The notes under the pieces are model-generated. The model was not told the DNA's origin and made no database searches. It saw nothing but the letters and a program-made list of their open reading frames with translations. Positions 4,118 to 64,000 of a DNA stretch of 64,000 nt are shown here, piece by piece; the first letter of the stretch is position 1, and the number at the start of each line of letters is the position of its first letter. The stretch is from Sunxiuqinia elliptica. GTDB taxonomy: Bacteria > Bacteroidota > Bacteroidia > Bacteroidales > Prolixibacteraceae. The stretch is taken from NCBI RefSeq assembly GCF_900113005.1, contig NZ_FONW01000005.1, positions 62,001-126,000 of the forward strand, read 5' to 3'. The translations under genes were made by a program, and so were the position numbers.

Positions 4118-4777
4118 TCAGCCACGGACGGTTTTTCCTAAAGCTTCCAGAAGCTGAGGTTTATCTTCCAGACCAATCCGGGCAACAGCGTAGAATTCGC
4201 TCATCCAGTCGTCCAGCTTGGCAAAGGCCGCATCTTTCGATTGAGTTGCTTCCTGCGATTCCCCCTTCTCGCGAAGGTAAACAGTGCGTGCGGTTTCCAG
4301 TTCCGAAATTTTGGTCTGGGCCGCCTCAAGTTCATCTGTGGAAATTTTTAGCCGTCCCAGCTTGCTTTGAAGGGCGGTGTCGGTAGTGGCTACCGAGTAG
4401 AATTTCTTGACTGTTTCCAGCCATTTAACGTAAGCTTTTGGAAGTGAGCCGGTGATTCCCAATTGCTCAGCGGTTACCGGATCGTTACGGAAAATTACCT
4501 TGGCTTTTTTCCGATGCAAGGAGTACAGAGCATGCAAATCTGTTTGTTTTAGTTGAAAATCAGCATACGCAGCCGATGTTTCATCATCTTCTGTTTTGTT
4601 CAGATCGTAGGCCAAGCGCGTTGTAGCCAGCAAGGTTTTGCCTTCCCCAATCAAGCTGCTGTCGTAGCCTAAGTCGGCCATAATTGTGGCAATTTGAGGC
4701 TGTGCCTCGGCATTGTCCAGCGCTACCCGGTAGGTCTCCAAAGTAGCGGCTTCTGAATGTCTGGGTCTGGTTGCCAT
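4118..4777 (-). CDS. 219-aa all-helical unknown protein, copy 1
   Basis: I cannot name this family. It is soluble, charged and almost entirely helical, with no signal peptide. A paralogue of the same length sits at 53004-53663 and aligns end to end: SEAA near the N-terminus, KTEDDETSAAYA at about 60-71, HRKKAKV at about 88-94, a Glu-rich middle, then KDAAFAKLD(D/E)WMSEFYAVA and a C-terminus of the form EDxPQLLE(A/S)LGK. Conservation of these blocks shows it is a real protein. Its upstream region carries a 21-bp tandem array, as does that of the paralogue. Low cysteine content and many Lys/Glu suggest a cytoplasmic scaffold or nucleic-acid-associated protein, but that is a guess. Confidence 0.75.
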   Translation of the reverse strand: MATRPRHSEAATLETYRVALDNAEAQPQIATIMADLGYDSSLIGEGKTLLATTRLAYDLNKTEDDETSAAYADFQLKQTDLHALYSLHRKKAKVIFRNDPVTAEQLGITGSLPKAYVKWLETVKKFYSVATTDTALQSKLGRLKISTDELEAAQTKISELETARTVYLREKGESQEATQSKDAAFAKLDDWMSEFYAVARIGLEDKPQLLEALGKTVRG

Positions 4778-11240: not shown

Positions 11241-11540
11241 TTTATTAGTTGCTTATAGCGCTTGGCTTACATATTCCAGGGCTTTTGGGTTGTTGACGTT
11301 GTAGGATGAACGGACTATAAAATTGAATTATTTCAATTTTCTTCTCTCTCTTATTTTTTTGAGGCAAGCAATTTACAAAAAACAACGTGATCCTCATGCT
11401 CATTGCGCCGAGCTATTGCTTTTGCCCCGTTGGGGTGTGAGTCAGTGCCCCGTGGTGAGTGAACGGTGGTCAGTATTGGGGGATCAAGTCCCGATTTCTA
11501 CGAAAGGAGAAAAGGAATTGAGATTTTGTCTTTAAAATAA

Positions 11541-11665
11541 GTTTGGCTGTTTGGCGCATGCTGGTCTAAGCTCTATTCAATAATTTCGGAGTTGCGCCAA
11601 TAATCATCTTTACATCAATCCTCAGGGCGTTGCCCTTGAGTTGTTGCTTTTGCCCTGTTAGGGCT
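11541..11665. repeat. 125-bp REP-like direct repeat, copy 1
   Basis: This segment recurs at 11915-12039 with the same length and only a few mismatches. It ends in two tandem GC-rich hairpins, CTCAGGGC-GTT-GCCCTTGAG (11621-11640) and GCCCT-GTT-AGGGC (11652-11664), which look like the REP/BIME-type units seen between Bacteroidota genes and often mobilised by Y1 (RAYT) transposases. A third partial copy with CCCCGTTGGGG lies at about 11398-11436. The whole 11241-12110 stretch has no convincing gene. Confidence 0.8.
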
Positions 11666-11842
11666 GCAGGAAGTGATCGGTGGTGTGTGAATCGAGAATA
11701 GTGAACAGCAAACAGTGAATGTTGGCCAGTCAAAGTCGCCCGGGCCGGTGTTGGCGTGAATGATTTTCTGAGGGAGCAGGGTCTCTTGGGTTTGAAAAAA
11801 AATCATGAAGCGGGCAGAAGGATTACTTTGACTAGATTTTTA

Positions 11843-11869
11843 CCTCCTTTTTATCAATGAAAAAGGAGG
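11843..11869. repeat. 10-bp perfect inverted repeat between the two direct repeats
   Basis: CCTCCTTTTT (11843-11852) and AAAAAGGAGG (11860-11869) flank a 7-base loop. It could act as a terminator in either direction or be part of the same family of mobile intergenic hairpins. Confidence 0.6.
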
Positions 11870-11914
11870 AGCCCCTCTGGCTTGAAGAGGCGAAAAGGAG
11901 TTGGCATTAAAAAC

Positions 11915-12039
11915 GTTTGCCTGTTTGGCGCATGCTTGTCTAAGCTCTATTCAATAATTTCGGAGTTGCGCCAATAATCATCTTTACATTAATCCTCAGG
12001 GCGTTGCCCTTGAGTTGTTGCTTTTGCCCTGTTGGGGCT
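11915..12039. repeat. 125-bp REP-like direct repeat, copy 2
   Basis: Gap-free counterpart of 11541-11665 at a fixed offset of 374 bp, again ending in the two hairpins (11995-12014 and 12026-12038). After the repeat both copies continue into loosely similar GTGGTCAGTGG/TGATCGGTGG text, which suggests that the duplicated unit was originally longer. Confidence 0.8.
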
Positions 12040-52087: not shown

Positions 52088-52159
52088 GAGAAGGTGTTGT
52101 TGGTGTTTCTCCGAAATGGATAACTGCCCCCAATGACAGCGTTAATGAAAAGAGAATTG

Positions 52160-52936
52160 ATGAGTAAGCAAAAATTAACAATCGTAAAAGTTGGCGGAAA
52201 GGTCGTGGAAGAAGCAGCTTCGCTGGCCGATTTGCTGGGGCGTTTTTCAGCCTTGGACGGACTGAAGGTGTTGGTGCATGGAGGTGGTCGCTCTGCCACT
52301 GCAATGGCCGAACGCCTGGGAATTGAAACCCAAATGGTGGAAGGACGCCGGATCACAGATCAATCCATGTTGGAAGTGGTTACCATGGTGTATGGCGGAC
52401 TGGTTAATAAAAATATTGTAGCACAACTGCAGGCTTTGGGGCTCAATGCCATTGGCCTGACAGGTGCTGATCTCAATTATATGCAGGCCGTAAAACGTCC
52501 GGTAAAAACCATCGACTATGGTTTTGTGGGCGACATCGTTCAAGTGAATGTGGATGAATTAAATCTCCTGCTCGAAAAGCAGGTGATTCCAGTTCTGGCT
52601 CCTTTGTCACACGACAAACAGGGAAGCATGCTGAATGTGAATGCCGATACCATTGCAGCAGAGGCAGCGGTTGCTTTCAGTGAGCATTTTGAGGTTGAAC
52701 TGGTGTACTGTTTCGAAAAGTCCGGCGTATTAGAAGATGCTGACGATGATGCCTCTGTGCTGAGCTCGTTGACTTATGAAACGTTTAAAGGCTTGCAGGA
52801 AAGTGGTGCCATTCATGCCGGAATGATTCCTAAGCTGGATAATAGTTTCAATGCCATCAAACGAGGAGTATCAACAGTGCGTATTACCAATATTCCTGGG
52901 TTACAAGAAGGCGGAACAAGCCTGTTAGCTGAATAA
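52160..52936 (+). CDS. argB: N-acylglutamate kinase
   Basis: I chose the ATG at 52160 (MSKQKLTIVKVGGKVV), giving 258 residues; the frame opens at 52133. Kinase blocks: IVKVGGKV, LVHGGGRSATAMAERLG (substrate side), GLTGADLNY, and the nucleotide side NADTIAAEAAVAF with GMIPKLDNSFNAIKRGV. In this organism the substrate is probably N-succinylglutamate. The last 282 bp are duplicated at 57238-57519. An 18-bp perfect hairpin follows. Confidence 0.95.
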   Translation: MSKQKLTIVKVGGKVVEEAASLADLLGRFSALDGLKVLVHGGGRSATAMAERLGIETQMVEGRRITDQSMLEVVTMVYGGLVNKNIVAQLQALGLNAIGLTGADLNYMQAVKRPVKTIDYGFVGDIVQVNVDELNLLLEKQVIPVLAPLSHDKQGSMLNVNADTIAAEAAVAFSEHFEVELVYCFEKSGVLEDADDDASVLSSLTYETFKGLQESGAIHAGMIPKLDNSFNAIKRGVSTVRITNIPGLQEGGTSLLAE

Positions 52937-52942
52937 AGCCTG

Positions 52943-52988
52943 TTATCAAGTAACCCAATTGGGATCAAAAAATTGGGTTACTTGATAA
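52943..52988. terminator. 18-bp perfect stem-loop after argB
   Basis: TTATCAAGTAACCCAATT (52943-52960) and its exact inverse (52971-52988) flank a 10-base loop between argB and the convergent 219-aa gene. There is no T-run in either direction, so termination would depend on the long stem alone, or it has another role such as RNA stabilisation. Confidence 0.7.
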
Positions 52989-53003
52989 TAAATAGGCTAG
53001 GAT

Positions 53004-53663
53004 TTAACTCTTGATTGACTTGCCCAATGATTCTAGGAGTTGAGGGTGATCTTCCAGTGCAATTTTTGCAACGGCATAAAATTCACTCATCCACTCATCA
53101 AGCTTGGCAAAAGCAGCGTCTTTTTGTTGGGTGGCATCTTCTGATTCTCCAACCTCCCGAAGGTATTCAGCGCGAGCCGACTCTGTTGAGCTAATTAGCT
53201 CTGAAGCCTGATTTAATTCTTCTTCCGGTACTTTTAACCGGCTTAATCTATTTTTTAATTCTTCGCTTTTAGTCAATTCGTCATAGAACTTTTTGATCAT
53301 TTCCATCCACTTGACATAAGCACCAGGTTGTGTTCCTTGGAGAAGCAATAAATCAAGAATCACAGGTTCATTTTTAAATACGACTTTTGCCTTTTTTCGG
53401 TGAGTCTTGTAAAGTTCTTTTAGTGCGTCTTTTTGATTGCTGAAAGTGGCATAGGCAGCAGATGTTTCATCATCTTCTGTCTTATTTCGGTTGTAGATCT
53501 CAAAGGTTTTGGAATAAAGGTTTTCACCAGTAACAATGACTTCAGGAGTATAACCATATTCAGTCATGATAGAGGAAATCGTTGGTTGCTTTTTTGCATT
53601 TTCGATTGAAACCCGGTATTGCTCCAATACCGCAGCTTCTGAATTTGTTCTTTTTGTGGACAT
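53004..53663 (-). CDS. 219-aa all-helical unknown protein, copy 2
   Basis: Paralogue of the gene at 4118-4777, same length and collinear from end to end: SEAAVLEQYRVSIENA against SEAATLETYRVALDNA, the block NKTEDDETSAAYA, HRKKAKVVFKNEPV, and KDAAFAKLDEWMSEFYAVA. No domain I can name, no signal peptide, no membrane segment. Two copies about 49 kb apart in one window show an expanded family in this genome. The N-terminus and the last 40 residues are the best conserved parts. Its 5' region holds the diverged 21-bp array. Confidence 0.78.
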   Translation of the reverse strand: MSTKRTNSEAAVLEQYRVSIENAKKQPTISSIMTEYGYTPEVIVTGENLYSKTFEIYNRNKTEDDETSAAYATFSNQKDALKELYKTHRKKAKVVFKNEPVILDLLLLQGTQPGAYVKWMEMIKKFYDELTKSEELKNRLSRLKVPEEELNQASELISSTESARAEYLREVGESEDATQQKDAAFAKLDEWMSEFYAVAKIALEDHPQLLESLGKSIKS

Positions 53664-53703
53664 AAATTCAACATTTTAAGTTAAACTGGTATTTCGTCGT
53701 GTC

Positions 53704-53871
53704 CTTAAAGGGCACGAGCTGTTCCTTAACATGTTTTTCGCATCCCTTCATGCGATTTATCCACTTTTAAGCACATTTTGTTTACTCTTTGTTGTCGTTT
53801 GTCTTCTCCTTAAGGCAGTTGGTGGGAGCCTTGTGGTGCTTTGTCAACTCCTTGGGAAATAGCTGCTTCAC
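53704..53871 (-). repeat. 21-bp phased array upstream of copy 2 (eight units)
   Basis: Read on the reverse strand, eight consecutive 21-base blocks from 53871 to 53704 end in AAG or AAA/TAA, six of them exactly AAG (53851, 53830, 53809, 53746, 53725, 53704). The first unit begins GTGAAGCAGC, like the core GTGAAGCAAC of array 1. Base identity between units is low apart from this, yet the period has no indel over 168 bp. Stop codons interrupt all long frames. The frame differs from that of the downstream gene. Confidence 0.65.
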
Positions 53872-53992
53872 CTCTTGAATAAACCTTAATTCAAATATAA
53901 AGTGTTTTGATTAGTTAGCAATAAAATGAATTGATTTTTTATGAAAACTTTATAGCTTTAGCTCCAAAATTCATAACTTCTAATCAAACAAT
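53872..53992. promoter_or_regulatory. spacer between the array and the 762-aa gene
   Basis: About 120 bp of AT-rich DNA holding the divergent starts of the 762-aa gene (rightward) and of the array/219-aa transcript (leftward). TATAGCTTTAG near 53951 resembles a -7 element (TAnnTTTA). With the array, the full gene-free gap is 53664-53992, 329 bp. Confidence 0.35.
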
Positions 53993-56281
53993 ATGAACCT
54001 GATCGAAATCTGTATCGCTTTTGTGGCTGCTATTATTAGTGTTGGAACACCTTTGGTCTTTCAGGTCATATCGAAGTTTGATGAGAAATACCAGTCTGCA
54101 AAAGTTATTGATCTGTTTAAGAAGGAAAGCAAGTTTGAATGGTTAAAGGGATTGATTATTGCAACGCCAGCCTTTGCGTTGTTGTATGTGTTAATTTCAT
54201 TTTTAGTAGTTTTTATTCATGAAAACAGGTTTAGTAATTTACTCTTTATCATCTCAGCACTTCTTTTGTTGTCAACAGGCTTATTATTGTCTCAATTTAT
54301 ATTCTTTTCTTTTAAAGTTTTAAAATTCAGTAATCCTTTTTCTTTTGTAGAAGCAAGAATCAAATATTTGGAAAAGAATACGAAGACCAAAAGGGTTGAA
54401 TCTGATGATAGCATGGAGGTAGTTACCAATTTCTTCCTTTATTCATTATCAAAGGAATTGGTTGATATTTGTACTCTGATCCCTAGATATATGGTTGCTG
54501 TTTCCAGATGCTATGAAAAAAACTCAAAAAATGGTATAGTTGAATTTCCAGATAAGTTTTATGAATCAACTCGATACATAGCACAGGAGTTTTCGTTGTC
54601 AGAAAGTGCAAGATTAAAGAAACTTGAGAATGTAGCGTCTGGATTTGATTGGTTAATTGGATCAGCAGATGGGCTGAAGATATCTGAAAAGACATACAAT
54701 GTACTTTGGTCAAGTTTGACATACCTGGTTTCAAATAAGAAGGATGATGTGGTTTTTGCATATTGGAGGAGATCATCACGATACTTTGAATTTGAGTTAA
54801 GGCGGCCTGCTAAAATATATTCGACTCCTGATTCTACAGATAAAGTTAATCAGGAAGAGATTAATCAAAAAGAAAAAGAACGTGACGAATTTCGCGATTT
54901 TCATTATTATCTGGGAGGGATGTTATTATCTGAAAACCGGATGATGTGTATCCGAAAAATTTGGGATCATACCAATAGCGAACCACCAAGATATCCATTG
55001 TTGCCATCAACAATGGGTGAGATATTTAATCGTTATTTTAAGTTATGTACCACCTTTGATAACGAGTTATGGGAAAAGGCTGCACGATTTAATTTTCCCA
55101 AAAATGATTCTATAAATTTTGACTGGGAGGTAAATGGGATGATTAAAAGATACTTGGTGCTTCTGTTTCTGAGGCAATACACTTTGAGAAAATATTTGAT
55201 GACACAAAATTATTTTAGTTTGCCAAAGTCACCGGATTCTCAAGCAGGTAAAAGGCATTGGCTTGAATGTCTTCCTTGGTTTAGGGAACGATTAGAAGAG
55301 TATATGGCGGATGAAAATTTCATGGAACTTCTACGATTTGATAAGATCGAGGGGGCCTGCGACGAAAGGGGATTATCAAGGCCGTTAGCATTAATTGATG
55401 AGTTTAAAGAACGACTCGAGGCAGACCTCAAACAAGCTGAAGTTGAACAACCGATATCCGAAGAAAAAGAGAAGAATTTTTTAACTGTAAGCAAATCCTT
55501 AATCGAAAGTGCAACTGTAGAATACGGAAATGTTTTGGTTAAGGAAAGCGGGATTAATGGGAAGGAATACAATTCATTTTATATCGGTGGTGAATTCCAG
55601 GTAGTTTCGAAAAGTGATTTTGCAGACGAACAAGGCTATGATCACATCAATTACGATTCGTTTTTAGCAGAAAGTATATCAACAAAACTTCAGATGGGGA
55701 TTTCGGAGACATTTTTAACATCGGTTAAGGCAAGTTATTTATTAAAAGAGGAAGACTTATTTCCAGCTATCGATCGTTTGGGTGTTATTGATAAACCAGA
55801 AGATTTTATGATTGTTTCTTTTCGTAATAACATTAAATATTTTATGGATGTTTTAGAGGTTGGTGAATTAAGCAGCGAGAAATACAAGGGGATTGATATA
55901 GTTGATATCTGGACTTGTGATAGTCGTTTAGTTAGAAGTATGTTTTTTATTCTTAGGAAATCAGACAAGCCTATATTTGTATTTGAAGAGCCAAGGAGAA
56001 AATGGAAAGAAACATATGAACCCAAAGAACAAATTTTATCTCCAGAACCTATTTGGGCTTCAATCATCGATCTACACAAGCATACTACAGTTCAGGGGAA
56101 ACTTCGGGAGCAAGGACTGAATGACGATTTGGATGATAAAGTGCTGGTTTCAATTGAAATGCTAGCAAAAATATCCTGGAAAAAGACTGCAAAAGTTATT
56201 GCTCTTGTATTGGCTAATGCCTATGAAGATAAAGGGCTTCCCAATAAGTTGGAAGAAGTTAAACCCTTCAATAAAAATTAA
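53993..56281 (+). CDS. unknown membrane-anchored protein, 762 aa
   Basis: Not recognised. Three N-terminal membrane helices are predicted at about 4-24, 53-75 and 82-106, then a cytoplasmic part of about 650 residues, mostly helical with charged stretches (for example INQKEKERDEF near 290, and LEADLKQAEVEQ near 480). Recurrent features such as WRRSSRYFEFELRRP and HWLECLPWFRERLEEYM hint at a large helical scaffold. There is no ATPase or nuclease motif that I can see. The gene is AT-rich compared with the arg cluster, which suggests transfer, and it lies within the segment bounded by argB-tail copies. Confidence 0.7.
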   Translation: MNLIEICIAFVAAIISVGTPLVFQVISKFDEKYQSAKVIDLFKKESKFEWLKGLIIATPAFALLYVLISFLVVFIHENRFSNLLFIISALLLLSTGLLLSQFIFFSFKVLKFSNPFSFVEARIKYLEKNTKTKRVESDDSMEVVTNFFLYSLSKELVDICTLIPRYMVAVSRCYEKNSKNGIVEFPDKFYESTRYIAQEFSLSESARLKKLENVASGFDWLIGSADGLKISEKTYNVLWSSLTYLVSNKKDDVVFAYWRRSSRYFEFELRRPAKIYSTPDSTDKVNQEEINQKEKERDEFRDFHYYLGGMLLSENRMMCIRKIWDHTNSEPPRYPLLPSTMGEIFNRYFKLCTTFDNELWEKAARFNFPKNDSINFDWEVNGMIKRYLVLLFLRQYTLRKYLMTQNYFSLPKSPDSQAGKRHWLECLPWFRERLEEYMADENFMELLRFDKIEGACDERGLSRPLALIDEFKERLEADLKQAEVEQPISEEKEKNFLTVSKSLIESATVEYGNVLVKESGINGKEYNSFYIGGEFQVVSKSDFADEQGYDHINYDSFLAESISTKLQMGISETFLTSVKASYLLKEEDLFPAIDRLGVIDKPEDFMIVSFRNNIKYFMDVLEVGELSSEKYKGIDIVDIWTCDSRLVRSMFFILRKSDKPIFVFEEPRRKWKETYEPKEQILSPEPIWASIIDLHKHTTVQGKLREQGLNDDLDDKVLVSIEMLAKISWKKTAKVIALVLANAYEDKGLPNKLEEVKPFNKN

Positions 56282-56393
56282 AGAAAGGGGCATGCTAAAT
56301 TTATTTGCTACTTTTGACCATGCGTTTACGGCTCCAACCTTAAAAGCGGGAGCAGCGTTATTAGCCATCAATTTTCACTAAAAAAGAGAGTAT

Positions 56394-56657
56394 ATGCCCC
56401 TTACCAATAATGACATTCTGAAAAAGCTACGCGTAGCCCTGAAATTGCGCGATGAAGATATTGTGGAGATTCTAAATCTGGTGGATTACAAGGTGACCAA
56501 GAGCGAGTTGGGAGCTTTTTTCCGAAGTGTTGAACATCCGAATTACAAGCCGCTTCAGGATCAGATTTTACGAAATTTTCTGAATGGACTGATTATTTAC
56601 AAGCGTGGCCCGCGGGAGCAGAAACCTGCGAAAGGCCCGGATAAAAAGCAGGAATAG
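56394..56657 (+). CDS. single-repeat DUF1456 protein, 87 aa
   Basis: Family proteins (YehS type) usually have two copies of a roughly 68-residue repeat. This one has one, starting NNDILKKLRVALKLRDEDI and ending LRNFLNGLIIYKRG, followed by a short charged tail (REQKPAKGPDKKQE). The repeat resembles the second half of normal members (NNxILKKLRxAL, LGAFFR), so the gene may be a 5'-truncated descendant with a new start. A -7-like TACTTTTG lies at 56309-56316. Function of the family is unknown. Confidence 0.75.
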   Translation: MPLTNNDILKKLRVALKLRDEDIVEILNLVDYKVTKSELGAFFRSVEHPNYKPLQDQILRNFLNGLIIYKRGPREQKPAKGPDKKQE

Positions 56658-56853
56658 GCTTTTTCAAGTTTAATTCCGCACCGTATCAATATAGGCGGGC
56701 TGAAGGCGGTTGCATGCAACAGGAAATTCTGAAAGTTCGTTGTATACAACCGCTTTCTTTTTGCTTTAGGTTGAAGTCTGCGATTATGGGCATTCAGCAA
56801 TAGGGAAGCAGATACAACAGAAAAATAAGAATGATGCTCAGCCCGAAGCCTTC

Positions 56854-57525
56854 GTGCAAGCACGCAAACAAATGGTTCGCATGCAAATTCAAGCCAGCGG
56901 TATCCAAGATCAGGAGGTGTTGGAGGCCATGCGAACCGTTCCCCGTCATCAGTTTGTTCCGTTGGACTATCTGGCAGAAGCCTATCGCAACGATCCACTG
57001 CCAATTGGCTACGGACAAACCATCTCGCAGCCTTACATTGTTGCCTATATGACCGAACAGATTTGTCCCCAATCTGACTTTAAAGTGTTGGAGATTGGTA
57101 CAGGTTCGGGCTATCAGGCTGCTGTGCTGGCCGAAATTGTTGATTCGGTTTATACCATTGAAATTGTGGAGGAGCTTGGGCAGGCGGCTAGGCAGCGCTT
57201 GCTGGATTTGAACTACAACAACGTGCGGGTAAAGATTGCCGATACCATTGCTGCAGAGGCTGCAGTTGCTTTCAGTGAGCATTTTGAGGTTGAACTGGTG
57301 TATTGTTTCGAAAAGCCCGGCGTATTGGAAGATGCTGACGATGATGCTTCTGTGATGAGCTCGTTGACTTACGAAACGTTTAAAGGCTTGCAGGAAAGTG
57401 GTGCCATTCATGCCAGAATGATTCCCAAGCTGGACAATAGTTTCAATGCCATCAAACGAGGAGTATCAACAGTGCGTATCACCAATATTCCTGGTTTGCA
57501 AGAAGGCGGAACGAGCCTGAATTAA
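56854..57525 (+). pseudogene. chimeric ORF: N-terminal half of Pcm fused in frame to the C-terminal third of ArgB
   Basis: Residues 1-128 are the start of a protein-L-isoaspartate methyltransferase: RTVPRHQFVPLDYLAEA, YGQTISQPYIVAYMTE and SAM motif I VLEIGTGSGYQAAVLAEI, up to NNVRVKI. At the point where Pcm should read GDG, the frame passes into ADTIAAEAAVAF and continues to the end of ArgB (residues about 162-255 of that protein). The junction is at the shared bases TTGCCGATAC-like text near 57236. The only start is GTG at 56854, with no upstream ATG in frame, so the Pcm 5' end is also doubtful. The key Gly of the ArgB HAGMIPKL block is Arg here. Neither enzyme can be complete. Confidence 0.88.
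57238..57519 (+). repeat. second copy of the last 282 bp of argB
   Basis: Aligns without gaps to 52643-52924 with 16 mismatches by hand count (about 94% identity). Thirteen of the 16 are synonymous in the ArgB frame; the others change Ser to Pro, Leu to Met and Gly to Arg. Similarity stops a few bases before the argB stop codon. Confidence 0.9.
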
Positions 57526-57555
57526 TCGCAGAAATTATTTTAGCCGATAACTTAT

Positions 57556-57588
57556 AAGGCCCCGATCCAATAATTAGATCGGAGCCTT
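57556..57588. terminator. terminator after the chimeric ORF and dipeptidase
   Basis: AAGGCCCCGATC (57556-57567) pairs with GATCGGAGCCTT (57577-57588), 12 bp with one mismatch, followed by a T-run on the forward strand. It lies between convergent genes. Confidence 0.88.
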
Positions 57589-57608
57589 TTTTTATGGTTG
57601 AGCTATTT

Positions 57609-58688
57609 TTAGCTAAAATATTCTTGTAGAAAGCGGATGAAATTACGGTGCATAATGTTGTCAATATCCTCCGAATTGTAGCCTCTCTGGGCGAGGAGAT
57701 GAGGCAGTTTTTGCAAATCAGCGATGGTGTCCAGGTCGTGTGGGCATTGTTCGGTCCCAAAAGCTCCATCGAGGTCACTACCCACTCCGGCGTGTAAGGA
57801 GTTGCCAGCCAGCTGACAGATGTGGTCAATGTTGTCCACCATTAAATCGAGCGTTACCTGGCGTTCTTTAGGATCAGACTTCCCACGAATCCAGTTTGGA
57901 ACCATCATCCAGGCATCGAGTGCCAAGCCAATTACGGCTTTCCGGTTGATCAACTCTTTGATCATTTCGTCGCTGAACTGGCGATTGTGGTCCACAAAAT
58001 GACGGCAGTTATTATGACTGGCCCAAATGCTTCCTTGGTATACTTCGAGGGCATGCCAAAAAGCATCGTCGTTGAGATGAGTCATATCCAGAATCATATT
58101 CAGCTGATCCATGGTTTTTAGTAGTTCAACCCCACGGGCGTTGAGCCGTCCACTTGAGTCGGTTCCATTGGCATAAACTCCCGGGCCGTAGTGGGCAGGA
58201 CCAATCGCTCGCAAGCCATAACCGTAGGCTCTTTCCAAGTGGTTCATTGACACGATTGAGTCAGCTCCTTCAAGGCTAAGCAGGTAGCCAATAGGTGTTT
58301 GCTCCGAGGGATTCTCCCAAAGTTTTAAGCTTTCCGCAAGGCTGGTTGCATCGGTAATGGGCTTCATTTCGCCGGCTTCTTCCATGGTGCGGTACCATTG
58401 CAGCTGTCCTTGGGTTTGAGCCCACGCTTGTTCCTGCGAAAACCAGCCGGGAATTGGGCTGCCAGGTTTTACCACTCGTGCAATTTGTGTGGCTACAACC
58501 AGCCCGACATGGCCTTCACGTAAGGCTGGAAATGAAACGGTGTTTTTTTCCCGGTCGGGTTTGTCGGTCATCCCTTTTTCACTAGCCCTGATTTGTTCAA
58601 CAGTCCACCGTTGATCCCGATTCCATTCCATGGCATTCATGGAAATGTCGAGATGGGCATCAAAACACAATATTTTTTTGTCGTTCAT
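57609..58688 (-). CDS. M19-family (renal-type) dipeptidase
   Basis: The 359-residue protein opens CFDAHLDISMNAM, giving the first HxD metal ligands, and has SLEGADSIV (Glu ligand), the catalytic HLNDD region, WASHNNCRHFVDHNRQ (two His) and GVGSDLDGAFG. These are the binuclear zinc sites of membrane dipeptidases, although this one has no signal peptide. It is last in an operon with a D-threonine-aldolase-like enzyme, so its natural substrates may be dipeptides containing D-residues. Confidence 0.93.
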   Translation of the reverse strand: MNDKKILCFDAHLDISMNAMEWNRDQRWTVEQIRASEKGMTDKPDREKNTVSFPALREGHVGLVVATQIARVVKPGSPIPGWFSQEQAWAQTQGQLQWYRTMEEAGEMKPITDATSLAESLKLWENPSEQTPIGYLLSLEGADSIVSMNHLERAYGYGLRAIGPAHYGPGVYANGTDSSGRLNARGVELLKTMDQLNMILDMTHLNDDAFWHALEVYQGSIWASHNNCRHFVDHNRQFSDEMIKELINRKAVIGLALDAWMMVPNWIRGKSDPKERQVTLDLMVDNIDHICQLAGNSLHAGVGSDLDGAFGTEQCPHDLDTIADLQKLPHLLAQRGYNSEDIDNIMHRNFIRFLQEYFS

Positions 58689-58712
58689 TGGTTTGTTCTT
58701 TCGTTGTTTGAT

Positions 58713-59819
58713 TTAGTAGATTCGTTTGCGTGCGGCAACTTGCCAGGTCTTTACAACTTCCTGCTGTTTCACCACATACACTTGCTCGTGAAGGGCTATG
58801 GTAGGGCAAACATGCTTCGGAATACCATAAACCAACTGGCCGATTGGTAATTCAGATGCTTGTTTACTCTTGATAACCAAGTGTTCTTCGCTATGATTGA
58901 TGACTTCATCAATTGGCAGGTCCAGGAAACGGAGACGTGGATGAGGCATTTCGGAAGCCAAAGCTTTGTAGCCAAGGTCGAAACAGATATACCCATTGGG
59001 TTTGCTGATTACGCGTGTGGCGATGACTGCTGCTGGCTGAAATTTCAACTCGGGCATTTCGTGGGTGTAGCCTTCATCCCAAAACACAGGCGTTCCGGGG
59101 CAAAGTGTCCGATCTGGATATTGGGCATGAATGGGGAAGGTTGGTGTACCTCCACAAGTAAGTTCGCCAACAGAAATGCCTTGTTGCTGAAGTGTTGCTA
59201 TCAGCTCTTCTACGGATTTGAAGTCTTGCTCTGTTTGTTGTCTGCGGGCTTCAATATCTGCAGAATGAATATGTCCATCGTAAACGTGCAAGCCTGAAAA
59301 TTTCAGGTTCTTATGAGTCTGAATAGCTTGAATAAGCTGCAAGGCTTGCTTGGGATCAATGCCCGTGCGATGCATGCCATTGTCAAGATCAACAAAAACA
59401 GCAGTTGTCAGTCCGGTCTGTTCACTAGCTTTATTTAGAGCTGTTGCAGCTTCGTATGAGTCAACCGTTACCGCAAATTTCACATTGGGAAAACGGTTGC
59501 ACAGCTTTAAAAAATGCTGAATGGCAGGTCCGAGCAGGGGATATGCCAATAAAATATCTTTCCCACCCTGTTGGGCAACCATCTCAAGCTCGCTTAAGGT
59601 AGCGCATTTAAACTTCTCAATGCCAAGTTCAATTTGCAGGGCAATTAATTCAGGAATCTTATGCGTTTTAACATGAGGACGCAAGCGGGAAGTACCTCCG
59701 GCAAGTTTAATCATTTGCTGGAGGTTGGAGTTTACCCGTTCCTGATAAATGAGCACGGAAGGGGTAAAAACTACCTCTTCGTTGGCGATGGAGTACCACA
59801 TCTCGGATGGACTATTCAT
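58713..59819 (-). CDS. D-threonine aldolase/D-serine dehydratase-like PLP enzyme (alanine-racemase fold)
   Basis: A 368-residue fold-type III PLP enzyme. The Schiff-base Lys is in SRLRPHVKTHKIPE near 44-57; further blocks are DLDNGMHRTGID, GLHVYDGHIHSAD, TCGGTPTFP and, at the C-terminus, the metal-binding His/Cys in YGIPKHVCPT. The pair His-x-Cys is typical of the zinc- or manganese-dependent D-serine dehydratase/D-threonine aldolase group. Its start overlaps the RidA stop by 8 bp (translational coupling). Whether it cleaves or dehydrates a D-hydroxyamino acid is open. Confidence 0.9.
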   Translation of the reverse strand: MNSPSEMWYSIANEEVVFTPSVLIYQERVNSNLQQMIKLAGGTSRLRPHVKTHKIPELIALQIELGIEKFKCATLSELEMVAQQGGKDILLAYPLLGPAIQHFLKLCNRFPNVKFAVTVDSYEAATALNKASEQTGLTTAVFVDLDNGMHRTGIDPKQALQLIQAIQTHKNLKFSGLHVYDGHIHSADIEARRQQTEQDFKSVEELIATLQQQGISVGELTCGGTPTFPIHAQYPDRTLCPGTPVFWDEGYTHEMPELKFQPAAVIATRVISKPNGYICFDLGYKALASEMPHPRLRFLDLPIDEVINHSEEHLVIKSKQASELPIGQLVYGIPKHVCPTIALHEQVYVVKQQEVVKTWQVAARKRIY

Positions 59820-60282
59820 GATCGTGAAGTTCGAAAATACACTCTACTTCAACGGCAATATTTCCAGGAAGGGACATGCCAACGGCGCTTCGGGCACCTT
59901 TCCCGTTTTCTTCGCCAAAAACGTCAACCATAAACTGGCTAAAGCCATTGATTGTTTGCGGGTGTTCTTCAAACTCCGGGTAGCAGTTGACCATCCCCAG
60001 TGTTTTGATGAGGCGTTTAATTTTTCCCAGATCTCCTAATTGCGCTTTTATGGTTGCAAGCATGGTTAGTCCAACCTGTTGAGCTGCAAGTTGTCCTTCT
60101 TCAAGGGTGAGGTCCCTGCCAACTTTTCCTTTAATGAGTTGGCCGTTACTTTGCAGCGGGCCTTGACCGGAGACATACAAGTAGTTACCGGTTATCAGAG
60201 TCGGATGATAAATTCCACCGAGGGGAGGAGCTGGTGGTAGTTCAAGTCCTAAGGCTTTAATTTTTTCTTCTACAGTTTGCAT
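59812..60282 (-). CDS. RidA-family enamine/imine deaminase
   Basis: I chose the ATG at 60282 (MQTVEEKIKALGLELP), giving 156 residues; the longer frame overlaps gntP and lacks homology. Blocks: GNYLYVSGQGPLQSNGQLIKGK, then LAAQQVGLTMLATIKAQLGDL, and RSAVGMSLPGNIAVEVECIF with the substrate Arg region. RidA proteins hydrolyse reactive 2-aminoacrylate-like enamines released by PLP dehydratases. A PLP enzyme of that kind is the next gene, overlapping by 8 bp, which fits a scavenging role. Confidence 0.92.
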   Translation of the reverse strand: MQTVEEKIKALGLELPPAPPLGGIYHPTLITGNYLYVSGQGPLQSNGQLIKGKVGRDLTLEEGQLAAQQVGLTMLATIKAQLGDLGKIKRLIKTLGMVNCYPEFEEHPQTINGFSQFMVDVFGEENGKGARSAVGMSLPGNIAVEVECIFELHDHE

Positions 60283-60328
60283 GATATTCCTGTTTTTAGG
60301 TGTAAAAAATAGCTTTATTCTAATTGAT

Positions 60329-61648
60329 TTAGACGAAAATACTGACGATAAAAATGCCAATCAGGCCAACAACGGAAATGGTGGTTTCCATGACCGTCCA
60401 GGTCATCAGGGTCTCCTTTACTGAAAGGTTAAAATACTCTTTAAACATCCAGAAGCCACCATCGTTAACGTGCGAAAGCATCAGGCTTCCAGATCCAATG
60501 GCCAGAACCATAAGTTCCGGCGAAACACCGGGGCTTGTAGCCAAGGGGAGGACAATGCCGGCAGCTGTCATTCCGGCGACGGTGGCTGAGCCAACTGCCA
60601 CGCGAATGACGGCAGCGATGAGCCAGCCCAGGAATAGCGGGGAAAGTTGTGATTGGCTTAATAGATCGCCCAGGTAGTCACTAATTCCGCTGGTCACCAA
60701 AATTTCTTTTAAGCCTCCCGCGCCTGCCAATATCAATAAAATCATGGCAATGCTTGAGATGGCATGAGTAAGCCCGTTCATAATCTCACCGATCTTTTTC
60801 CCACGTCGAATGCCGAGTGTGTAAATGGCAAATAGAACAGAAATCAGCATGGCAAAAACTGGGTTCCCAATGCCTTGTAGCACTCCATATATGGTTGAGC
60901 CTTTGGGAACCAGGTAGGAGCCAATCCCGGAGGACGCAATCAGAATTACGGGCATTAATGCAGTGACAATGCTGATGAATGTTGAAGGAAGTTCTTCTTC
61001 CTCGAGAGGCGCTTGTCCTGTAAAATCCTCCAGCGGTTTGGCTTGAATGTGTTTAAAGCGTGGGGATAGAATGGGACCGGCAATAACAATAGCCGGAATG
61101 GCTACCAGTAGTCCCAAAAACATGGTTTTCCCAAGGTCGGCATTAAACATGTCGGCAATCGCTGTTGGGGCGGGGTGTGGGGGCAGGTAGCCATGAGTAA
61201 CCGACAAGGAGGCAAGCATGGGAAGTCCTACAAATAAAAGCGGAAGTCTGGTGGCAGCCGCAACAGTAAAGACAATGGGAACAAGAATAACAAAGCCGAC
61301 CGAGTAAAACATCGGAATGCCAACAATAAAGCCGGTCAGCATTAAAGCCCAATGAATTTTTTTCAGCCCAAATGCTTTCACCAAGGCATTGGTAATTCGT
61401 TGTGCAGAACCGCTGTCGGCAACTAGTTTACCAAGCATGGAGCCAAACCCCAGTATAAGTACCAGCAAGCCCAAAGTGTCCCCCATGCCCTTTTTCATGG
61501 CATCAATGGTAGTGTCTAAGGACAAACCCATTCCCAAGCCCACAAAAAGGCAAACCAATGAAAACGAAATAAAGGCATTCAGCTTGAATACAGTAATGAG
61601 TAGCAAGAGCAGAATTACTCCTGTAATGACAATCAGTAAAGGTAGCAT
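60329..61648 (-). CDS. GntP-family gluconate/hydroxyacid permease
   Basis: A 439-residue protein with about 12-14 membrane helices. It opens LLIVITGVILLLLLITVF and has the family blocks GFGSMLGKLVADSGSA, YLPPHPAPTAIA and AVIRVAVGSATVAG. Members carry gluconate, L-idonate, D-serine (DsdX) or other hydroxyacids with protons. It leads a leftward operon with RidA, a D-threonine aldolase-like enzyme and a dipeptidase, which points to a DsdX-like substrate such as a D-hydroxyamino acid rather than gluconate. Confidence 0.92.
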   Translation of the reverse strand: MLPLLIVITGVILLLLLITVFKLNAFISFSLVCLFVGLGMGLSLDTTIDAMKKGMGDTLGLLVLILGFGSMLGKLVADSGSAQRITNALVKAFGLKKIHWALMLTGFIVGIPMFYSVGFVILVPIVFTVAAATRLPLLFVGLPMLASLSVTHGYLPPHPAPTAIADMFNADLGKTMFLGLLVAIPAIVIAGPILSPRFKHIQAKPLEDFTGQAPLEEEELPSTFISIVTALMPVILIASSGIGSYLVPKGSTIYGVLQGIGNPVFAMLISVLFAIYTLGIRRGKKIGEIMNGLTHAISSIAMILLILAGAGGLKEILVTSGISDYLGDLLSQSQLSPLFLGWLIAAVIRVAVGSATVAGMTAAGIVLPLATSPGVSPELMVLAIGSGSLMLSHVNDGGFWMFKEYFNLSVKETLMTWTVMETTISVVGLIGIFIVSIFV

Positions 61649-61749
61649 GTTGTTCTTGTTTAGTTTAGTTAGTTGCCACTTGCGCGACAGGTTTTAAGCG
61701 GCTTTTGTTTTTAGGGGTGGGAATAAAACAAGAGCAATATCTTAAAACA

Positions 61750-61791
61750 AACCCATGCAAGCAGTTGTCTTTCAATCTGCTCGTATGGGTT
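61750..61791. promoter_or_regulatory. interrupted inverted repeat, cydB/gntP intergenic region
   Basis: AACCCAT (61750-61756) and ATGGGTT (61785-61791) with inner GCAG (61761-61764) and CTGC (61777-61780). It can fold into an interrupted hairpin in the leader of the gntP operon or downstream of cydB. Confidence 0.45.
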
Positions 61792-61815
61792 CATAAATAT
61801 AGAATATAATCTTGA

Positions 61816-61849
61816 AGAATGAAATGATTGTACGACCTCATTTCATTCT
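61816..61849. promoter_or_regulatory. 12-bp perfect inverted repeat, candidate operator or terminator
   Basis: AGAATGAAATGA (61816-61827) and TCATTTCATTCT (61838-61849) flank 10 bp. Its AT-rich 12-10-12 layout suits an operator for the gntP operon; no regulator gene is adjacent. A GCCAATATTGGC palindrome lies near 61880. Confidence 0.5.
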
Positions 61850-61913
61850 AAATAATGTGATTATCAATTGTAATAAGCGCCAATATTGGCTTTGCTTAAC
61901 CTCTTTTTATTGT

Positions 61914-62918
61914 TTAAGAAGAGGCTTTTTTATCGAATTTGAATGTTTTGTATAAATAGCCCATAAAAGGGAAAATGATCAACACTCCAACAATCAAAGC
62001 AATTAGGAGGTGTAGCTGTGTTTGTTCCGATGCAACTGAGCTTTGAACAGTAATGTCTGTCCCGTCATTAATCTTCACAAGTATGGGGAATTGAATGGCA
62101 AACCAGCCCACAACGATCATGGTTGTTTGAAAACCGGCGATAAGCCTTAAATAGTTTTTATTGTTCCGGTTGAGGTTGACCCATAAGAGAGGCAAAGCCA
62201 GTGTTGCCAAAATAATACTGATCATACTTGGTGTTGAATGGTAGAACTCGTAAAACAAAGGATGCCCATCAATTTGAGCGGCAGCAAATACAAAAGCACC
62301 AGCTAAAACGAGTGCCACGATGAGGTATTTACCCATCCGGGTGAACCGTTTTACGTGCACCGGGTCAGTGGTCTCTCCTAAAGTGAAAATATTGGCCAAA
62401 AAGGCAAATAAAACTACCAGAAAGATACCCATGCTAAACGAGAATAAATTGAGCCAAGGGTGCAAATAGACCCTGAAAAAGCCCAAACTATAATCGGTCG
62501 TAATTTCTCCCAGAATAATTCCTCCCATGGTTACTCCCAGAAAGAAGGTTGTAAACAGGCTGGAGTATCTAAAAATTGATGAGTAAATTGCTTTTGGGGT
62601 TTCTTCATCAATGTCGTAATGACGAAAGGTGAAGGCCGAGCCTCGAAAAATAATCCCAATCAGAACCAGTAGAACCGGAATGTGTAAAGCTGTAAGCACC
62701 GTTGAGTAAACAGTGGGGAACCCAACAAACAGGATCACGACCACCAAAATTAACCACACATGGTTAGCTTCCCAAACAGGTGCAATTGCGCGGGCAACAA
62801 TGCCTGAGGCTTTTCCTCTCGAAATCAGTTCCAGAATTCCTCCGCCAAAATCAGCTCCACCAAGGAGCACATAGAGTAAAAGGCTAATGCCTAGTACGAT
62901 TAGAATAATCTCAGTCAT
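61914..62918 (-). CDS. cydB: cytochrome bd ubiquinol oxidase, subunit II
   Basis: The 334-residue membrane protein has about eight or nine helices. It opens LIVLGISLLLYVLLGGADFGGGILE, the typical CydB start, and has PVWEANHVWLILVVVILFVGFP near 46-67 and GSAFTFRHYD. It forms the high-affinity oxygen reductase with CydA, whose gene overlaps its start by 8 bp (ATGACTGA). The bd oxidase lets an otherwise fermentative organism respire or remove oxygen at low levels. Confidence 0.95.
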   Translation of the reverse strand: MTEIILIVLGISLLLYVLLGGADFGGGILELISRGKASGIVARAIAPVWEANHVWLILVVVILFVGFPTVYSTVLTALHIPVLLVLIGIIFRGSAFTFRHYDIDEETPKAIYSSIFRYSSLFTTFFLGVTMGGIILGEITTDYSLGFFRVYLHPWLNLFSFSMGIFLVVLFAFLANIFTLGETTDPVHVKRFTRMGKYLIVALVLAGAFVFAAAQIDGHPLFYEFYHSTPSMISIILATLALPLLWVNLNRNNKNYLRLIAGFQTTMIVVGWFAIQFPILVKINDGTDITVQSSVASEQTQLHLLIALIVGVLIIFPFMGYLYKTFKFDKKASS

Positions 62919-64000
62919 TGGATTTGTATTTGTTTTGAAGCATTTTAATTTGACGGCTCAAAAGCCAGATAACAATAAAGCTAAGTAGCAAGTATACAGC
63001 CGTAATGGTGTAGAACGTGTATTGGATTCCCGGCATCGGAGTCAGTGAATCTTTGGTTTTCATGATGCCGTAGATAATCCAGGGTTGACGGCCAACTTCG
63101 GTAACCACCCATCCGGCCTGAATGGCAATAAAACCAAGCGGAGTAGCAACAATCAGCAGTTTTAACCACCAACGCTTTTCAAGCCAGTGTTTCCATTTGT
63201 AGGTTCCTGCCAGGAAGATCACACCCAACAAGGCCAAAAACATCCCAATTCCCACCATAATTTGGAAGGAATAGTGTGTGATTGGAACTGGAGGCCATTC
63301 TTCTTCCGGAAACTCTTCCAACCCTTTCACCTCGGCTTTGAAATCGCCATGAGCCAGGAAACTCAGGAATCCAGGGAGTTTGATGGCATACTTAACTTCC
63401 CGGTTTTCAACATCGGGGATCCCTCCAATAATCAGCGGAGCCGACTCTTGAGTTTCAAAATGTGCTTCAAAAGCAGCCAGCTTGGCGGGTTGGCGTTCTG
63501 CTACACTTTTAGCGGCATGGTCGCCACTTAGTGGTTGCAACAAGGCAGCTACCGAAGCAAAAGCCAAGGCAATGGTGATTGCTTTAGCATGAATCTCGAG
63601 TTTGTTTTTCAGGTAGAGGATGGCGTGTACACCGGCAACGGCAAATCCGGTAGCCGAAAAGGCCGCAATAACCATGTGGTGCGATTGTACAAACCAAGCC
63701 TTGTTGAACATTGCTGCAACGGGATCAATATTGATTGCTTGTCCGTCGACCCAATCAAATCCCGCAGGAGCATTCATCCAGGCATTTGCCGAAATAACAA
63801 AAATTCCGGACATAACTCCGGCAATTCCGACAACCATTCCAATGTAAAGGTGTAGTTTTTTATTGAGGCGATTCCAGCCATATAGCCACAGCCCTAAGGC
63901 AATTGCTTCTACAAAGAATGCTGATCCTTCGTAGGAGAAGGGCATTCCAAAAATGGGGCCTGCATGTTCCATAAATGTAGGCCACAACATTCCCAATTCG
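62911..64000 (-). CDS. cydA: cytochrome bd ubiquinol oxidase, subunit I, N-terminus off the right edge
   Basis: About 363 residues are visible; the usual first 75-90 residues with the first heme ligand lie beyond the window. Seen here: FMEHAGPIFGMPFSYEGSAFFVEA, SANAWMNAPAGFD and NKAWFVQSHHMVIAAFSATGF (heme ligand His), LQPLSGDHAAKSVAERQP, and the C-terminal block GWVVTEVGRQPWIIYG. The stretch between about 190 and 230 replaces the long Q-loop with a short charged segment. It overlaps cydB and ends KYKSND. Confidence 0.95.
   Translation of the reverse strand, partial: ELGMLWPTFMEHAGPIFGMPFSYEGSAFFVEAIALGLWLYGWNRLNKKLHLYIGMVVGIAGVMSGIFVISANAWMNAPAGFDWVDGQAINIDPVAAMFNKAWFVQSHHMVIAAFSATGFAVAGVHAILYLKNKLEIHAKAITIALAFASVAALLQPLSGDHAAKSVAERQPAKLAAFEAHFETQESAPLIIGGIPDVENREVKYAIKLPGFLSFLAHGDFKAEVKGLEEFPEEEWPPVPITHYSFQIMVGIGMFLALLGVIFLAGTYKWKHWLEKRWWLKLLIVATPLGFIAIQAGWVVTEVGRQPWIIYGIMKTKDSLTPMPGIQYTFYTITAVYLLLSFIVIWLLSRQIKMLQNKYKSND

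Follow-up and report, generated by a model that had tools for sequence, protein, structure and literature searches.

We analysed a stretch of 64,000 nucleotides from Sunxiuqinia elliptica (contig NZ_FONW01000005.1, positions 62,001 to 126,000), hereafter the window, which is part of a 276-kb contig in a 5.09-Mb genome of 26 contigs. Near its end lies an open reading frame (ORF), pcm'::argB', in which the 5' half of pcm, the isoaspartate methyltransferase gene, continues into the 3' end of argB, the acetylglutamate kinase gene. The frame is open over 251 codons with no internal stops. Specifically, residues 5-131 of the product correspond to positions 4-133 of the 210 of the Pfam PCMT profile (PF01135; 112.2 bits for the whole protein), and the closing stretch of the Pfam AA_kinase profile is matched by residues 129-211 with 25.9 bits. 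The argB profile TIGR00761 matches over its last 76 positions (156-231 of 231). An in-frame pcm::argB chimera had been proposed in a first-pass annotation of the letters alone, and the open frame, together with the profile matches to either half, confirms it.

Both likenesses are partial. The product resembles Pcm over its first matched region and differs from it in the start, the leader and the C-terminal part of the profile, of which the last 77 positions have no counterpart. It therefore fails as a full-length PCMT domain, whereas the homolog in the relative G003 matches positions 3-208, and it falls short of the Pcm equivalogs NF001453 (153.1 bits against a cut-off of 188) and TIGR00080 (123.1 against 159.05). 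In the same way, the likeness to ArgB ends where the first two thirds of the TIGR00761 profile are missing, and the ArgB equivalog is not reached (37.9 bits against a cut-off of 151.3). Among 140 genomes of the family, the fusion is present in this one only.

In the same-genus relatives G003, G001 and G004, the corresponding genes are arranged in the order DUF1456, x148 (oppositely oriented, and matched in part in G004), full-length pcm, spmS, cydB and cydA. The window reads instead DUF1456, pcm', argB', stop, terminator-like hairpin, a cassette comprising an M19 dipeptidase, a D-serine dehydratase/alanine racemase-like protein (DSD), a RidA-like protein and a GntP permease, and then cydBA. 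Thus, the pcm 3' half and spmS of the relatives are replaced by argB', the hairpin and the M19-DSD-RidA-GntP cassette (Table 1). Four features of this arrangement had escaped the first-pass annotation, namely the intact argB upstream, a pcm paralog on another contig (C10), the lost pcm start and leader, and the lost spmS.

Table 1. Features at and around the pcm'::argB' junction (window positions).
Feature	Coordinates	Strand	Remarks
Intact argB	52133..52936	+	nearest relative found of argB', by sequence comparison
DUF1456 gene	56394..56657	+	also precedes pcm in G003, G001 and G004
Deletion site, about 0.6 kb relative to G003	56832..56836	+	most of x148, pcm start and leader gone
pcm 5' half without start codon and leader	56836..57243	+	93% nucleotide identity to full-length G003 pcm (L029 7920-8627)
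Chimeric ORF pcm'::argB'	56854..57525	+	223 aa with GTG as start; TAA stop codon, 57523-57525
argB', additional copy of the 3' end of argB	57234..57519	+	94.06% identity to 52639-52924; 17 mismatches in 286
Junction microhomology TGCCGAT	57237..57243	+	common to pcm and argB, by sequence comparison
Terminator-like hairpin and T-run 3' of argB'	57556..57593	+	fold z -3.3 for 57520-57600
M19 dipeptidase, DSD, RidA-like, GntP permease	57609..61648	-	occupies the place of spmS in relatives
cydB-cydA	61914..63996	-	G003 synteny resumes here; cydB family by profile

The seam was located by comparing the full-length pcm of G003 (L029; AAAGATTGCCGATGGG), the intact argB (GTGAATGCCGATACC) and the chimera (AAAGATTGCCGATACC). 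The two parents have a common run of 7 bases, TGCCGAT, at the joint. The earlier suggestion of a few shared bases holds in this form, but the pcm sequence expected at that point (ATTGGCGAT) does not, as the closest full-length pcm has ATTGCCGAT. Common runs of at least 7 bases occur at 0.06% of the 567,721 possible pcm x argB breakpoint pairs, which supports microhomology recombination as the cause of the fusion.

The argB part of the chimera has a single other match in this genome, the intact argB (96% protein identity), which lies 4.3 kb upstream of the chimera. The two copies, on the same strand and offset by 4.6 kb, align without gaps over 286 bases, so that argB' covers about the last 94 codons; one of the mismatches belongs to the pcm part, before the junction. 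The remaining 16 differences comprise 13 synonymous and 3 nonsynonymous changes. A free-running copy following a local duplication would be expected to show 8.8-10.5 nonsynonymous changes out of 16, and the probability of 3 or fewer is 0.0002-0.0035 (intact-copy omega, the ratio of nonsynonymous to synonymous rates, 0.02-0.15; kappa, the transition/transversion ratio, 1-4), dropping further if argB was unconstrained as well. For comparison, the same argB stretch in two species of the genus (G002 and G006) is 95.4% identical, with 9 synonymous and 4 nonsynonymous changes. The nonsynonymous changes were polarised with seven relatives (G001-G006 and Gaoshiqia). At two of the three sites argB' has the base of all seven and the intact argB has changed, from Pro to Ser and to Leu from Met (Ile in the relatives). 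The Ser codon lies at 52721-52723; argB' and 7/7 relatives carry Pro at this site (FEKPG). The third change, Gly to Arg, is on argB', at a site where all seven have Gly. By these comparisons, argB' appears to differ from argB as orthologs of two species do, unlike a free-running local duplicate.

The homology of the two copies ends 4 codons short of the argB stop, where ArgB C-termini vary among relatives. Downstream of argB', the terminator-like hairpin was missed by a consensus terminator scan, whose loop limit of 8 bases is below the 9-base loop of this element. Hairpins are found 3' of argB in several relatives as well (by eye; folding covered the window's argB and G003); the one after argB' is alike in kind to these terminators by eye, with homology not shown, and comparison with M19 flanks in other genera established no likeness either. 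Together, argB', its stop and the terminator-like element would read as the natural end of a close relative's argB. That this piece of argB is a second and diverged copy, with a stop and terminator-like hairpin of its own, had not been recognised in the first-pass annotation; it points to a related strain as the source of the DNA.

A purely local origin represents the main rival to this view. Here, the argB 3' end would have been copied into pcm, 4.6 kb further downstream, by template switching or by a tandem duplication at TGCCGAT, after which the resident argB was overwritten by another strain's allele, or both copies diverged. This is compatible with the gene order in the window, in G003 and in two genomes of a neighbouring genus (G111 and G113), all of which have argB and pcm close together and in the same orientation, with the structure of the fusion, as pcm-5'::argB-3' is the exact novel joint of a tandem duplication, and with the finding that no sequence found is closer to argB' than the argB within the window itself. 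However, the ratio of synonymous to nonsynonymous changes calls for one more event, or for selection acting on the copy, and the placement of the M19 cassette and the removal of spmS call for yet another. We regard a local event as rather unlikely. In G111 and G113 (L147 and L149) x148 and pcm come after argB, and the closeness of argB and pcm may be older than the genus of the window.

On the pcm side, comparison with G003 reveals 9.5 nonsynonymous and 17.5 synonymous changes (omega 0.14). Judged by eye with G001 and G004 as references, pcm' has acquired five or six of the amino-acid changes and the G003 gene two, and three of the pcm' changes affect sites common to the other three pcm genes compared. 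These are mild signs of relaxed selection on pcm', and because the relaxation is mild the break in pcm is probably recent. The leader whose loss is reported here was recognised by eye. A search for an intact pcm elsewhere, as proposed in the first-pass annotation, found the pcm half nowhere else in this genome, the nearest match being the full-length 218-aa paralog on C10 (48% identity over 119 residues). The block comprising DUF1456 and pcm' (56256-57243) is 98% and 93% identical to G003, with synonymous divergence (dS) of 0.09 and 0.23, compared to 72-82% (dS at least 1.4 or saturated) for the flanking argF, argB, cydB and cydA. In view of this difference in identity, a recent exchange of the block between the lineages of the window and of G003 seems likely.

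As for the displaced genes, spmS encodes a long protein without a Pfam match, which we take to be spermidine-synthase-like. It has no match in the window's genome, is matched in two of six genomes searched (G001 and G003) and, by tblastn, in G004, and has no match in G002, G005 and G006; the leader-bearing type of pcm is unmatched in G002 and G006. Because they are missing from other members of the genus, spmS and this pcm are, on such gene content, dispensable there. The rest of the contig (C13) shows no match to the genes of the locus or to the G003 spmS, pcm and x148 (tblastn, E 1e-8).

A close match to the M19 gene was found in one of the seven genus genomes, the window's own. Matches in five of the other six are weak and partial (E 7e-12 or worse, 29-38% identity), and there was none in G004, an incomplete genome. 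Across the family, M19 is found at E <= 1e-40 in 10 of 139 other genomes, eight of them at 81-84% identity, and the 4-kb stretches around these eight genes contain an adjoining DSD gene in every case and RidA in seven. With M19 patchy in both genus and family, and DSD and RidA kept alongside, the cassette is accessory and was most likely acquired. No integrase or transposase family matched any of the eight main ORFs scanned from argB to cydBA, and a plasmid collection yielded one irrelevant 76-base pcm match. The contents of the interval from argB to cydBA (52937-61913) differ between the window and G003, the M19 cassette being present in the window only, and the interval may be an exchange hotspot in the genus.

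Two other vehicles were considered and rejected. An integrative element targeting argB was dropped on account of h219, the gene 3' of argB (53004-53663; no Pfam match), which occupies this position in G001 and G079 too; for the same reason, the h219 side looks native. A Campbell-type integration of an argB-bearing circle would leave the cassette flanked by the two argB copies, whereas here it follows argB'. In the same region, h219 has diverged nucleotide matches at 4145-4594 (77% over 93 bases and 94% over 32 bases), and 53993-56281 encodes a 762-aa protein with no Pfam or NCBIfam match and none in the six other genus genomes (E 0.001). Further away, a direct repeat of 140 bases (94%, copies 375 bases apart) lies at 11526-12039.

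An error of assembly is unlikely, and we give an artefactual join almost no weight. Exact runs common to both argB copies speak in its favour, but the longest of them is 44 bases. Against it, the 16 differences indicate a real second argB copy, the pcm half is not duplicated elsewhere in the genome, the seam lies inside the 276-kb contig, and the missing spmS and the adjoining cassette fit a real rearrangement.

We then considered whether the fusion is a gene product in its own right, as the first-pass annotation had allowed in suggesting either a decaying by-product or a new protein joining S-adenosylmethionine (SAM)-binding and ATP-binding half-domains. An expressed protein, in which the SAM-binding half of Pcm is completed by the C-terminal half of ArgB into a hybrid alpha/beta domain, appears improbable. 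The native start and leader of pcm are gone; a single genome carries the fusion; and Gly is replaced by Arg in the ArgB part where 7/7 relatives retain it, in addition to the three pcm' changes at common sites. A box motif has no match in 56317-57525 (57 in the whole window against 64 expected, not above chance), and a sigma-70-type scan gave 14 sites against 14.3 expected, with a consensus that may not be that of the host. The AlphaFold2 model shows a plausible compact alpha/beta fold (predicted TM-score, pTM, 0.65), so that the product may fold, and the five models range in predicted local confidence (pLDDT) from 79.1 down to 59.4. How the two halves pack against each other has weak support, as the alignment used for the fold consists of two non-overlapping blocks and the Foldseek TM-score to Pcm is 0.56. 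In the model, the seam falls just after a Pcm beta strand and just before an ArgB helix; that the ArgB tail would complete the truncated Pcm sheet, giving a folded and possibly SAM-binding hybrid in one recombination step, is more improbable still. A narrow open-access literature search found no gene fusion of isoaspartate methyltransferase and acetylglutamate kinase, and among the matches listed no paper on the genus concerned this locus by title. Of the two suggestions, the data support the decaying by-product, and the fusion product most likely has no function. As a gene, the chimera probably matters little, because the genome still has a pcm paralog of full length.

In conclusion, we consider it fairly probable, from comparison of the sequences, that pcm'::argB' is a chimeric remnant marking the place of an illegitimate and probably homology-facilitated recombination between a close relative's DNA and the resident pcm. 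The ancestral locus would have been DUF1456-x148-pcm-spmS-cydBA, with argB close by, and the incoming DNA argB-terminator-M19-DSD-RidA-GntP-cydBA. One end would have paired by homology in cydBA, and the other would have been sealed at TGCCGAT, joining pcm of one parent to argB of the other and leaving the argB tail and the cassette in place of the pcm 3' half and spmS. A separate deletion took the pcm start and leader together with the region upstream of them. That the frame stays open across the seam would be an accident, expected by chance in roughly one case in three.

Several observations weigh against this reconstruction. The supposed donor order, argB next to M19, was found in no genome, and the ten M19 carriers outside the genus have no argB in the flank of up to about 1.5 kb past M19. 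The homologous end is placed by us in cydBA, a gene pair common to the window and its relatives, by inference only. Moreover, spmS and the leader-bearing pcm are missing in other members of the genus, and their absence by itself needs no such event. Purifying selection acting on the chimera would give an equal synonymous excess in argB', and the mild relaxation of pcm' means either that the event was recent or that the frame is partly constrained. The locus neatly illustrates that, when close relatives exchange a cassette by illegitimate recombination, an in-frame chimera can be left at its border. It also calls for caution, as such chimeric ORFs may be annotated as methyltransferases.

Homology-facilitated illegitimate recombination has been observed in Streptococcus pneumoniae, Acinetobacter baylyi, Pseudomonas stutzeri and Escherichia coli conjugation; the illegitimate joint mostly has 3-10 bp of microhomology, and insertion is coupled with deletion (PMC3240628). 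The 7 bases of TGCCGAT fall within that range, and here too an insertion accompanies resident loss, with the pcm 3' half and spmS gone, the cassette in and cydB regained. The published events, which average 1 kb, were observed directly, whereas the present one, with about 4.7 kb of new DNA (57234-61913), a putative donor and a putative homologous end, was deduced by comparison. Small variable segments of bacterial genomes have likewise been attributed to illegitimate recombination (PMC2884548); that survey differs from our case in concerning variation within species of other organisms, and resembles it in that a segment is swapped between conserved flanks.
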